Assembly (NCBI GenBank): GCA_003223515.1
Contig: QHVI01000020.1
Location: forward strand, 1 to 61,153
Direction: 5' to 3'
From: Candidatus Angelobacter sp. Gp1-AA117
GTDB lineage: Bacteria > Acidobacteriota > Terriglobia > Terriglobales > Acidobacteriaceae
Length of the DNA: 61,153 nucleotides
The position numbers and the translations under genes were made by a program. The notes beneath the pieces are model-generated. The model did no database searches. It was not told where the DNA came from and worked only from the letters and a program-made list of their open reading frames with translations. Positions within the stretch are counted from its first letter, which is position 1, and each line of letters opens with the position of its first letter. Of this stretch, positions 3,753 to 34,241 are shown one piece after another.

Positions 3753-5186
3753 GTGGCTACCACAGAGATAAATCCAGTGCTGGAGAGCATGCGCGCGGAA
3801 AAACGCGCTGTGGCTCTGAACTCGCTGCTCGCCGCGCTGGCCGTGACTGTGCTGAAGCTGCTGGTAGGCATTTCTACCCGCAGTCTGGGCATCTTGTCTG
3901 AGGCGGCGCATTCCGGCCTTGATCTGGTAGCCGCATTCATCACTCTGCTCTCGGTGCGTGTCTCTGATAAACCTGCTGACGCCGAGCATCAATATGGCCA
4001 TGGGAAGGTTGAAAACTTCTCCGCATTTATCGAAACCGGTCTGCTGCTGCTGACCTGTATCTGGATCCTCTGGGAAGCGGCACGGCGCCTGGCCGGTTAT
4101 CACGCGGTGGATATCGAGCCCACTCCTGCTGCATTTGCGGTGCTGTTCATCTCCATGGCGGTGGACTGGTGGCGCTCCCGCAAGCTGAAGCGCATTGCCC
4201 GCAAGTATGACAGCCAGGCTCTGGAGGCCGATGCCCTTCACTTCAGCACCGATATTTTTTCCAGCGCAGTGGTCGCGCTGGGACTGGGCCTGGTATGGCT
4301 CGGGCGCATATGGCAGCATCCATTGCTGGACAAAGCCGATTCAATCGCTGCCCTGGTCGTCTCTGGCGTAATTGTCTATGTGAGCTGGCGTCTGGCCCGG
4401 CAGACGATTGATTCCCTGCTGGACGCGGCGCCAGCCGGTTACCGCAATCGCGTGATCGAAGCTGTGCTGAATATTTCCGGAGTCATCGAGGTAGAGCGGG
4501 TGCGCATCCGCCGCGCCGGAAATCGCTATTTTGCCGACCTCACCGTTGGCCTTGCCCGTAACGTCACCTTCCAGCGCTCCGGCCAGGTAGTGGCCGATAT
4601 CTCTGATGCCGTGCACCGTATCCTGCCCGATGCCGATGTGGTCATCCATTCGGTGCCGCGCGAAACCGGCCAGGAAAACATCTTTGATCGCATTCGGGCT
4701 GTGGCTGCCCGCAATAATTTCAGCGTCCATGACGTAAGCGTGCAGGATCTGGGCGGACGCCTTCACGTGGAGCAGCACCTGGAACTGAATGAAACTCTTA
4801 CCTTGAAGCAGGGCCATGATCTGGTTACAGTGCTTGAAGGTGAGATGCGCCATGACGTGCCTGAAATCTCCACCATCCTGACCCACATCGAGAGCGAACC
4901 GGCAACCATCGAGCCTGGGAGGAAGATGATTCGCGATGCTGCGCTGGAGAACAAGCTGCGTCCCATCTTGAATGAATTCCCGGAAATTCTCGATATGCAT
5001 GATGTAGAGATCAAGCGCGTCCGCGAAAAAGTCTATATGTCATGCCATTGCACCATGTCCGATGATTTACCGCTGGCGCGCGTCCATGATATTTCTACAG
5101 AGTTGGAGATTCGCTTCAAGCAGGTAGCGCCGGAGCTGTTCAAGGTATTGATTCATCCCGAACCGCAGACTGATAACAGGAGATAA
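3753..5186 (+). CDS. CDF-family cation efflux transporter with extended C-terminus
   Basis: A cation diffusion facilitator that would export divalent metals such as zinc, iron or manganese across the inner membrane. Both metal-site motifs are visible: H53xxxD57 in AAHSGLDLV (TM2) and H163xxxD167 in ALHFSTDIF (TM5), with six hydrophobic segments in residues 20-220. At 477 residues it is much longer than the usual ~300. After the first cytoplasmic CDF domain (about 225-300) two more similar stretches follow, one around EQHLELNETLTLKQGHDL and one around YMSCHCTMSDDLPLARVHDI, suggesting three stacked ferredoxin-like domains. The start is GTG at 3753. The osmC-like gene begins 3 bases after its stop, so they are co-transcribed. 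Confidence 0.9.
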   Translation: MATTEINPVLESMRAEKRAVALNSLLAALAVTVLKLLVGISTRSLGILSEAAHSGLDLVAAFITLLSVRVSDKPADAEHQYGHGKVENFSAFIETGLLLLTCIWILWEAARRLAGYHAVDIEPTPAAFAVLFISMAVDWWRSRKLKRIARKYDSQALEADALHFSTDIFSSAVVALGLGLVWLGRIWQHPLLDKADSIAALVVSGVIVYVSWRLARQTIDSLLDAAPAGYRNRVIEAVLNISGVIEVERVRIRRAGNRYFADLTVGLARNVTFQRSGQVVADISDAVHRILPDADVVIHSVPRETGQENIFDRIRAVAARNNFSVHDVSVQDLGGRLHVEQHLELNETLTLKQGHDLVTVLEGEMRHDVPEISTILTHIESEPATIEPGRKMIRDAALENKLRPILNEFPEILDMHDVEIKRVREKVYMSCHCTMSDDLPLARVHDISTELEIRFKQVAPELFKVLIHPEPQTDNRR

Positions 5187-5189
5187 ACA

Positions 5190-5630
5190 GTGGTTGAAGC
5201 CAGAACAGACTGGATTGACGGCGAGCGTTTTGTGGCCCGCGCCAGCAGTGGCCATGCCATGGTCATCGATTCGGATCGTCAGCGCAATAGCGCGCCCGGA
5301 CCAATGGAACTGGTATTGATGGGACTGTGTGCCTGTGCGGCTACCGATGTAGTGATTATTCTCAAGAAGAAGCGGGAGCCGTTCACCGGGGTGGAAGTCC
5401 ATGCCGAGGCGGAGCGCGCACCCGACCCACCCTCCGTGTATACCAGCATTAAGCTGGTGTTTACGATCAGTGGCCATATCTCAACCAAGGCCGCCGAGGA
5501 TGCGGTGCGGCTGTCCGAGGAGAAATACTGCTCGGTGGCCGCCATGCTGAAGCACACCGCCACCATCACTACTGAAGTAAGGATTGTGGAACCCACAACC
5601 GCCCCTGAACAGGAGCTGGCATCCCGGTAA
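5190..5630 (+). CDS. OsmC-family peroxide-detoxifying protein
   Basis: A 146-residue OsmC/Ohr-like protein, the usual family length. Members reduce organic or fatty-acid hydroperoxides with a pair of thiols. The two expected cysteines are present: one in CACAATDVV (Cys49 aligns with the family position, Cys47 is extra) and one in EEKYCSVAAML (Cys114). The start is GTG with a good Shine-Dalgarno (caggaga) inside the end of the transporter gene. A probable selenocysteine glutaredoxin follows 141 bases downstream, so metal export and thiol/peroxide chemistry are grouped here. Confidence 0.9.
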   Translation: MVEARTDWIDGERFVARASSGHAMVIDSDRQRNSAPGPMELVLMGLCACAATDVVIILKKKREPFTGVEVHAEAERAPDPPSVYTSIKLVFTISGHISTKAAEDAVRLSEEKYCSVAAMLKHTATITTEVRIVEPTTAPEQELASR

Positions 5631-5635
5631 TCACT

Positions 5636-5684
5636 TTAGCTCGTTGGTACCTTTACGTCCTTAGCGTCCTTTGCGGTTAAAACT
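5636..5684 (+). repeat. Dispersed repeat R1, short copy
   Basis: A degraded copy of the family 'tacctttgcgtcctctgcgg' that recurs many times between genes in this window. It separates the osmC-like gene from the glutaredoxin gene. Confidence 0.6.
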
Positions 5685-5771
5685 TGCTAGACTGTGGGCA
5701 GAAAGAAATTTTCGCAACCTCAGGGCTTTATTGTTATTCCAATGTTGTGAGACTCATTACCAGGAGCCAGA

Positions 5772-6011
5772 ATGCCGCACAAAAAGATAGTGGTCTACAG
5801 CCAGCCCGGATGACCGCCGTGTTATACGGCTAAAGCCTTCCTCGCGGAGCGGGGAGTTGAATTTGAAGTAAAAGATGTAAGTGTCGATCAGAAAGCAGTG
5901 TTTGAGTTGGTGCGCACCTACAACAGCCGTTCCACTCCGACCATTGTGGTCGGCGATCAGGTCATGATCGGCTTTGATCCTGAACGACTGGACCAGATGC
6001 TTGCAGAGTAA
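5772..6011 (+). CDS. Probable selenocysteine-containing glutaredoxin (in-frame TGA)
   Basis: Starting at ATG 5772, a 79-residue glutaredoxin reads through one in-frame TGA (5811-5813) to TAA at 6009. The protein reads MPHKKIVVYSQPG-[TGA]-PPCYTAKAFL, so the TGA stands exactly at the first cysteine of the CPPC redox motif. If it is decoded as selenocysteine the active site is UPPC. The rest is a complete glutaredoxin: a helix AKAFLAERGVEFEVKDV, the cis-proline loop STPTIVVGDQ and the final helix PERLDQMLAE. A clear Shine-Dalgarno (aggag, 5762-5766) stands 5 bases before ATG. Hairpins follow the TGA (see separate entry). Alternatives are a nonsense-mutated gene or a sequencing error. Conventional gene callers would miss it. 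Confidence 0.75.
5814..5856 (+). promoter_or_regulatory. Candidate bacterial SECIS element
   Basis: Two hairpins can be drawn after the TGA. One is GCCGT-GTTAT-ACGGC (5816-5830), with loop G directly after the stem but only about 7 bases from the TGA. The other pairs 5836-5843 with 5847-5854 (CCTTCCTC with GAGCGGGG, one C-C mismatch and two G-U pairs) around a GCG loop about 30 bases after the TGA. The second fits the usual spacing of bacterial SECIS elements, which carry a G at the start of the apical loop. Drawn by eye, not folded. Confidence 0.4.
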
Positions 6012-6042
6012 GATAGCGACAGGAACTTCCAGCCTCTCCCCG

Positions 6043-6948
6043 GTGCAACACACCCATCCGTGGAGAGGCTATTTCTGTATAGCGGCTGCTACGCTGTGCT
6101 GGGCCGCAGGCGCCAGCTTTGCCAAAGGCATCTTCAATGGCAAACTCTTTCCCGGCCAGCCGCCGATCTCGCCCCTGGTTTTCACACAAACGCGCACTAC
6201 CTTCGCCGTCCTTGTCCTCGGCGTCTTCCTATTTCTGCGCAGCGGGGTTGAAGTTCTTCGGATCGGCAAACGTGATCTGCTGTTATGCGCCGTTACGGGA
6301 ACTCTTGGTCTTGCCGGCTCAAACTTTTTCTATTATGTGGCCATTCAGAAGACCACGGTTGCCATGGCCATCACCGTGCAATACACCGCGCCCGTATGGG
6401 TGCTGCTCTACATGGTGCTGCGCGGAAAGCAGCGGGCTACGCCCGAACGCATCCTGGCTGTACTGCTGGCGCTTTTGGGGATCGCCATGGCTATAGGCCT
6501 GTTTTATTCCGGACTGAAGCTGAACTTGCCCGGTGTCGGATCAGCCCTGCTGGCTGCATTTTCGTTCTGCCTGTATAACGTGGCTGGACAAGGACTGGTT
6601 ACACGCTATCCGCCCCTGAAGATCATGTTCCTTGCTCTGCTCAGTTCGGCAGTGATGTGGCTGCTGCTCGATCCGCCATGGAAGCTTGCCGCCCAGCACT
6701 TCACCGTGCTGCAATGGGGATTCATGTTCGCCTTCGGCTGCTTTTCCATGCTGCTGCCCTACGTGTTCTATTTCAGCGGCTTGAAATACCTTGATCCTAC
6801 CCGCGCCGTGGTGACGAGCTGCCTTGAGCCGGTCTTTGCCATTTTGTTTGCAGCGCTCTTTATCGGGGAAACCGTGCGCCTGCTGCAGATCATTGGTATT
6901 GCCGCTGTACTTACGGCGACTGTGATCGTTCAGAAGAGCAGCCATTGA
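6043..6948 (+). CDS. EamA/DMT-family transporter
   Basis: A ten-segment drug/metabolite transporter with two EamA repeats (about residues 10-145 and 155-300). Typical features are GYFCIAAATLCWAAG at the start of TM1, QYTAPVWVLLYMVL at the end of the first repeat, and LDPTRAVVTSCLEPVFAILFAALFIGE near the end, which is the classic EamA closing motif. The substrate is unknown; relatives export amino acids or metabolites. The frame is open back to 5974 inside the glutaredoxin gene, but GTG 6043 is the likeliest start because TM1 follows closely. It lies 31 bases after the glutaredoxin and is probably in the same transcript. Confidence 0.85.
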   Translation: MQHTHPWRGYFCIAAATLCWAAGASFAKGIFNGKLFPGQPPISPLVFTQTRTTFAVLVLGVFLFLRSGVEVLRIGKRDLLLCAVTGTLGLAGSNFFYYVAIQKTTVAMAITVQYTAPVWVLLYMVLRGKQRATPERILAVLLALLGIAMAIGLFYSGLKLNLPGVGSALLAAFSFCLYNVAGQGLVTRYPPLKIMFLALLSSAVMWLLLDPPWKLAAQHFTVLQWGFMFAFGCFSMLLPYVFYFSGLKYLDPTRAVVTSCLEPVFAILFAALFIGETVRLLQIIGIAAVLTATVIVQKSSH

Positions 6949-7887: not shown

Positions 7888-8205
7888 CACCACAGCCGTG
7901 GCGAGCCACAACCAAACGGCTTTAACCGCAGAGAACGCAGAGAGCGCAGAGGAAGGCAAGTAAGCCGCGAATGACGCGAATTTACGCGAATCAGAAATGG
8001 GGTTAGCATTTAGCTGCCCAAGCAGAATTCTTCGCGGCTTGAGACGAATTTGATTGTTAGCAATGCAGAGGCCGCAGAGAACGCAAACGCGGGTGCGGTC
8101 CATAGGGAGCAACACACCGCCAATTCATACACATCAACTACTTTTGTTACCTTTGCGTCCTCTGCGGTTAAAGCCGTTTGGTTGTGGCTCGCCACGCTGC
8201 GGAGA
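7888..8205. repeat. Dispersed repeat R1, inverted pair of copies
   Basis: A minus-oriented copy (about 7888-7962, GTGGCGAGCCACAACCAAAC then the ctctgcg-type tract) and a plus copy (8119-8203, acacatcaactacttttgtt then the tract and GTGGCTCGCCAC) face each other. Between them lies a stretch with gaattcttcgcg and a gggagcaacacaccgcc motif also seen near 33950. No gene is supported here. Confidence 0.7.
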
Positions 8206-33772: not shown

Positions 33773-34241
33773 GTTTCGCTCCTCTGGAGGTTCAGTGAAT
33801 GAAGTTCGCTGAATGATGTGTCGATGAAATTCGGGAATACAAAACTATACGCTTAGCCTCAGAATTTTTCCCCTATATTACTAACGTTCGAATTCTTCTC
33901 TGCTTGCGACGAATTCTCCCGCGCAGCGAAAGATGGGTGCAGTCCAGAGGGAGCAACACACCGCCAAATTCAATACACATCAACTACTTTTGTTACCTTT
34001 GCGTCCTCTGCGTCGCATTGATATATACAAAATTCTTGTTTTCCTGCAAAGATTTTCATGCTGCTTTTGCATCCTTCCATATCCAAGCTTTGGCGACCGA
34101 AAATTTTGAGAGACTAAACAGTGCCGGATCAAATACACATCAACTACTTTTGTTACCTCTGCGTCCTTTGCGTCCTCTGCGGTAAAAGGTTTTTGGTTGT
34201 GGCTCGCCACGCTGTGTTGTATTGACATCTAAGTCACTAAG
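33773..34241. other. Gap filled by a composite R1 repeat
   Basis: 469 bases without a gene. About 33895-33960 holds a gggtgcagtccagagggagc tract seen also near 8095. About 33965-34217 is a two-unit composite: R1, then a ~110-base middle block (attcttgttttcctgcaaag, catgctgcttttgcatcctt, ccaagctttggcgacc), then R1 again ending in ggttgtggctcgccacgctg. The same composite occurs at 50400-50640. Confidence 0.7.

Follow-up and report, generated by a model that had tools for sequence, protein, structure and literature searches.

Selenocysteine-containing glutaredoxins (Sec-Grx) are an established kind of bacterial selenoprotein. In the accessible text of two sources (PMC13188914 and PMC9312934) they appear as Grx, PF00462, with a UxxC motif and WP_010943784.1 as an example. 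They stand there ahead of families that are merely predicted, and both sources credit Kim et al. 2011 for them. Grx selenoproteins are also counted in the accessible parts of PMC1088965 and PMC1794560. For Acidobacteria, the part of PMC1794560 available to us counts three selenoprotein families and four selenoproteins, and that of PMC12013277 counts three known selenoprotein genes in Occallatibacter riparius. The gene described below may be among those counted in either source, as far as their available text goes.

The locus described here comes from Candidatus Angelobacter sp. Gp1-AA117, an acidobacterium, and was analyzed within a 61,153-nucleotide stretch of contig QHVI01000020.1 (hereafter the window). 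A first-pass annotation, made from the sequence alone, had proposed that a glutaredoxin gene in it is probably a selenoprotein gene. This reading is now supported by the sel genes of the genome, by the TGA and Cys codons of relatives, by the neighboring genes and by a SECIS-like hairpin.

A glutaredoxin frame with one in-frame TGA, and the sel genes of its genome

The gene lies on the forward strand at 5772-6011 and encodes 79 amino acids, from an ATG at 5772-5774 to a TAA at 6009-6011. Its translation is MPHKKIVVYSQPG*PPCYTAKAFL...MLAE*, with a single internal TGA (the first asterisk) at 5811-5813 (codon 14). Reading the frame confirmed two of the original observations: the one TGA falls at the first active-site cysteine of a CPPC motif, giving UPPC, and an RBS-like AGGAG (5762-5766) precedes the start at a spacing of five bases. 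The UPPC motif occupies residues 14-17, placing a U-x-x-C site near the N-terminus, as is characteristic of Sec-Grx. With the TGA-encoded residue entered as cysteine, the protein matches the Pfam Glutaredoxin profile (PF00462) with 52.3 bits, above the gathering cut-off of 22.9. This match extends over residues 6-64 and therefore covers both sides of the TGA, where glutaredoxin sequence had been said to be intact. We use "glutaredoxin" as the name of the fold predicted by the PF00462 match. The gene is missing from the mechanical list of open reading frames of 60 amino acids or more, in line with the claim that standard callers do not see it. Any gene caller for which TGA always means stop would miss or truncate a gene of this kind.

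The genome (6.48 Mb in 206 contigs, rated 100% complete) contains the complete set of genes on which bacterial selenoproteins depend, for which a search had been proposed as a check. These are selA (547.3 bits), selB (399.7 bits, covering model positions 1-579 of 581), selD (372 bits; L018:1501-2430, minus strand) and a tRNA-Sec with anticodon UCA (L001; 71.9 bits), which ARAGORN also calls tRNA-SeC. SelD is probably a selenoprotein itself, since its gene has an in-frame TGA (AAGUASKL). The Rfam cut-off for tRNA-Sec is unspecific when used alone: all 14 control genomes gave a match and five exceeded it. One such match in the present genome (L003, 48.9 bits, over the cut-off) was called tRNA-Ser by ARAGORN and was rejected. 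A possible second selB on contig C78 was likewise dismissed as an EF-Tu fragment, with 234-237 bits on EF-Tu models vs 106.8 on selB.

Besides L001, a further tRNA-Sec-like gene of the genome (L002:1497-1595; G000:C190:14815-14909, minus strand; 57.9 bits) carries the anticodon UCA; its minimum-energy fold differs from the cloverleaf given by L001. Second tRNA-Sec matches of 56 bits or more occur in three other genomes (G055, G030 and G019).

Sec and Cys forms and their genomic neighborhood

A search of 61 genomes, including that of the window, matched 24 at E <= 1e-12. Among the 23 homologs from the 60 other related genomes, codon 14 is TGA in 22 and TGC in one (G025). This sharing goes beyond chance, as had been argued on the grounds that a random nonsense mutation would rarely hit this codon. 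All 23 genomes with a TGA gene, the window's included, have selA over its cut-off, and in 20 of them a tRNA-Sec match reaches at least 64 bits. The best tRNA-Sec matches in the other three, which have both the TGA gene and selA, reach only 48.1, 44.9 and 46.9 bits (G005, G009 and G015; completeness 81, 90 and 89%). The genome with the TGC form lacks selA and has no tRNA-Sec at E <= 1e-9. Six of eight congeners carry the TGA gene; the other two (G001 and G002) have selA and no strong homolog.

A single base separates TGA from a Cys codon, and homologs with Cys do exist, so the frame might be thought a pseudogene, that is, a CPPC glutaredoxin hit by a nonsense mutation, or the product of an assembly error at 5811-5813. 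The 22 of 23 strong homologs that share the codon in other genomes speak against this, as does purifying selection 3' of the TGA (mean pS 0.564 and pN 0.125 over the 28 pairs of eight close Sec genes, the window's among them).

In 200 genomes of the order, again including the window's, the gene was found in 50 at E <= 1e-10, and the same codon reads TGA in 29 and TGC or TGT in 21. An in-frame UGA thus aligns with Cys in homologs, the pattern by which selenoprotein genes are recognized. The comparisons suggested at the outset came out accordingly: relatives have either the same TGA or Cys at this position and no random stops. At E <= 1e-50, selA is present in 89 of the 200 genomes, including 28 of the 29 with the Sec form and 12 of the 21 with the Cys form among those that carry the gene (Fisher p 0.0009, a value that ignores relatedness; the nine selA-free Cys genomes belong to one clade). 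In G173, the sole Sec genome without selA at this threshold, the tRNA-Sec scores 63.1 bits. At E <= 1e-9, tRNA-Sec is missing from all nine selA-free Cys genomes and present in all five that were sampled from the 12 selA-bearing Cys genomes. The two Sec genomes in the same 16-genome check were G173, which was positive, and G009, which was negative.

The protein tree (54 sequences and 77 columns, with 21 of 51 inner branches open) calls for at least five changes between Sec and Cys, and well-supported branches force three of these. Its midpoint root is for drawing only, so the tree does not give the direction of these changes. Among named records, the closest is from an Acidobacteriaceae MAG, at 77% identity, followed by the Cys form of Silvibacterium bohemicum at 68%. 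Seven further loci (L043, L044 and L052-L056) lie outside the sets used for the 200-genome codon reading, the tree, the neighborhood and the core pairs. Three distant homologs with in-frame TGA (L043, L044 and L045) have the motifs UIFC or UMFC and look like a second Sec-Grx subgroup.

The gene had been placed between an OsmC-like gene and a transporter, and both neighbors proved to be correctly described. Upstream, on the same strand, are a CDF cation-efflux transporter gene (3753-5186; TIGR01297, PF01545) and an OsmC-family gene (5190-5630; PF02566), an open reading frame without in-frame TGA. Downstream is an EamA-family transporter gene (PF00892), also on the forward strand and listed at 5974-6948; with its start as listed, it overlaps the 3' end of the glutaredoxin gene. 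We searched 54 loci for these three neighbors with tblastn, using the window's proteins. At the 33 Sec loci, including the window's, OsmC was found in at least 26, EamA in at least 30 and CDF in at least 22, counts that are lower bounds because the flanks extend to 1.5 kb at most and to about 0.4 kb for L105. At the 21 Cys loci OsmC was found in seven and EamA in nine, with flanks of just about 0.4 kb in 16 of the 21.

Both OsmC and EamA genes adjoin seven Cys genes, all in selA-bearing genomes, a pattern suggestive of in situ exchange between Sec and Cys. The nine selA-free Cys genomes all fall inside one clade of 11 rows, where no OsmC, EamA or CDF gene was found in the flanks examined. Since none of the three neighbors was seen there, this clade may represent a different locus.

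Two repeats were noted in the window. A short dispersed repeat, CTTAGCGTCCTTTGCGGTTAAA, occurs at 5660-5681, 8151-8172 and 34166-34187 with 0, 2 and 3 mismatches, vs no copies expected, and an exact copy lies just upstream of the tRNA-Sec gene (L001:1468-1489). A 23-base repeat, GCCGTTTGGTTGTGGCTCGCCAC, forms an inverted pair at 7898-7920 (minus strand) and 8173-8195 (plus strand).

A conserved SECIS-like hairpin downstream of the UGA

According to the accessible text of PMC1088965, bacterial SECIS elements are structures downstream of the UGA whose small apical loop contains a conserved G. The window has a predicted hairpin at 5838-5856 (plus strand) that fits this published description: it lies just 3' of the UGA and carries G in a small apical loop. 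Its core consists of six base pairs (5840-5845 with 5849-5854) around the loop GGA (5846-5848), with 32 nt separating the UGA from the loop. Taken by itself, folding of this stretch of the window is unexceptional (z -0.32 vs dinucleotide shuffles), and 6.9% of synonymous shuffles are equally stable. Across 20 Sec genes, a set that omits L052 (identical in protein to L023) and the distant L043-L045, the fold is matched by fewer than 5% of synonymous shuffles in 15, the window's gene and four others being the exceptions. Of two Cys genes treated in the same way, one passes the 5% level with a different hairpin (L053, 1.7%) and one fails (L038).

Comparison among relatives identifies the element. 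RNAalifold, given 19 Sec sequences (one of which, L041, was mislocated), returned the six-pair core as the sole structure. In the window a different stem lies closest to the UGA; it was rejected as the SECIS, as most relatives' folds lack it. All six core pairs form in 30 of 32 Sec genes, a count that covers 32 of the 33 Sec rows and omits L045 (UMFC, in a different register). The loops are GGA in 23, GGC in seven and GGG in two. When the Sec genes were recoded synonymously in 1000 trials, complete cores numbered 0.38 on average and four of 32 at most. None of the 21 Cys genes has a complete core, and 54 of their 126 core pairs form vs a null mean of 52.2; pairing in Cys genes therefore does not exceed what coding alone would produce. 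At two positions of the core both partners of the pair vary (C-G/U-A and U-A/G-C). Outside the core, the pair at columns 28-44 is formed by just 21 of the 32 Sec genes. Codon choice differs as well: the Arg codon AGA occurs in 20 of the 32 hairpins vs five of 201 Arg codons outside the hairpin, the latter counted over the 54 genes less any unlocated. The conserved hairpin, which was absent from the first-pass annotation, is the strongest evidence added here for the Sec reading.

A core intact in 30 of the 32 Sec genes but in none of the 21 Cys genes is also hard to reconcile with a nonsense mutation or an error. On the cross-species conservation of both codon and hairpin we reject the pseudogene reading, which we regard as exceedingly improbable. 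Slightly less remote, and still very improbable, is that a tRNA-Sec-like RNA or allo-tRNA inserts another amino acid, such as Cys or Ser, at the UGA. Allo-tRNAs have been reported from Acidobacteria (PMC7609411, in its available part), and the second tRNA-Sec-like gene of this genome has the anticodon UCA. Against such decoding stand the full set of selA, selB, selD and tRNA-Sec, and a conserved SECIS-like hairpin of the kind expected under SelB-dependent decoding. The reading of the UGA as Sec, which we infer from the codon, the machinery and the hairpin, is well supported by comparison. The presence of Sec and Cys relatives in one order, with the hairpin in the Sec forms only, makes this gene a clean system for Sec/Cys exchange.

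Proposed function and comparison with known redoxins

We are highly confident that the frame encodes a Sec-containing thiol-disulfide oxidoreductase of the glutaredoxin fold, with Sec inserted at residue 14 in a SelB-dependent manner. In the proposed mechanism, SelB loaded with Sec-tRNA-Sec(UCA) would be recruited by the hairpin 3' of the UGA, Sec would be inserted at residue 14, and translation would then run to the TAA at 6009. Sec14 would probably act as the attacking nucleophile and Cys17 as the resolving residue of the UPPC redox site. Redox chemistry would be expected of such a protein by analogy with its family.

An alternative role for a Sec protein of this type is metal or metalloid binding, as considered for UXX-star proteins, in place of disulfide reduction. 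A CDF cation-efflux gene is nearby at two-thirds or more of the Sec loci (the 22 or more of 33 given above), and the protein scores 56.6 bits on the UXX-star model (NF041212, Uxx_star), though this is below the curated cut-off of 66. The accessible text of a review (PMC13188914) raises the possibility that Sec in UXX-star proteins binds metal or unknown substrates. However, UPPC retains a second Cys, and CxxC is preserved in the Cys forms. The top NCBIfam match is moreover the redoxin-like YruB (TIGR02196, 84.7 bits), which is also below its curated cut-off (88.55), as were the scores of all nine relatives tested against this model. Linkage to OsmC, in turn, suggests peroxide or thiol chemistry. 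We consider a main role in metal binding unlikely, and disulfide reduction by the Sec-glutaredoxin is the reading that we retain.

The bacillithiol synthesis gene bshA is present (G000:C189:20306-21433, L122; 568.2 bits, cut-off 273.7), and glutathione synthetase (PF02955) has no match in the genome at E <= 0.001; the same PF02955 search gave matches in nine of 14 control genomes, eight of them over the cut-off. On this gene content, the role of glutathione may fall to bacillithiol or a flavoprotein reductase. The electron donor could conceivably be bacillithiol, a thioredoxin-reductase-type enzyme or another reductant, and a possible substrate is the neighboring OsmC protein. A more specific scenario, which we offer as speculative and rather doubtful, is a selenium-based redoxin that works with bacillithiol instead of glutathione as the dedicated reductant of the adjacent OsmC protein, within a conserved CDF-OsmC-Grx-EamA unit for metal and peroxide stress. 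Given the link to OsmC and the presence of bshA, both partner and electron donor are accessible to experiment. If the bacillithiol and OsmC-reductant reading were true, Sec/Cys exchange at the same locus would amount to a natural experiment on the benefit of Sec.

Among solved chains the top match is PDB 3zit/3zij, named "thioredoxin" (62.6 bits) and presumably a Bacillus cereus protein. Its CPPC site aligns to UPPC, with Cys there and Sec here. Two entries named "Glutaredoxin", PDB 7c10 and 7c12/7c13, match with 52.2 and 47.6 bits; we take them to be the Sec-Grx of Clostridium (Alkaliphilus) oremlandii. Their CPHC (7c10) and CPHS (7c12) align to UPPC, with PH there and PP here, and relative to the protein described here these chains are one residue shorter immediately ahead of the TP/VP segment.

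No description of a CDF-OsmC-Grx-EamA gene group was found in the titles and opening lines of abstracts of a partial set of the literature. With published Sec-Grx the protein has in common the glutaredoxin fold, Sec as the first residue of UxxC, and the existence of Cys homologs. It differs from them in its UPPC subgroup, its acidobacterial order, its OsmC and EamA neighbors, and a genome with bshA and without a PF02955 match. Selenoproteins of this kind are already known, UxxC Sec-glutaredoxins having been published, and the gene is a further member with a conserved local context.
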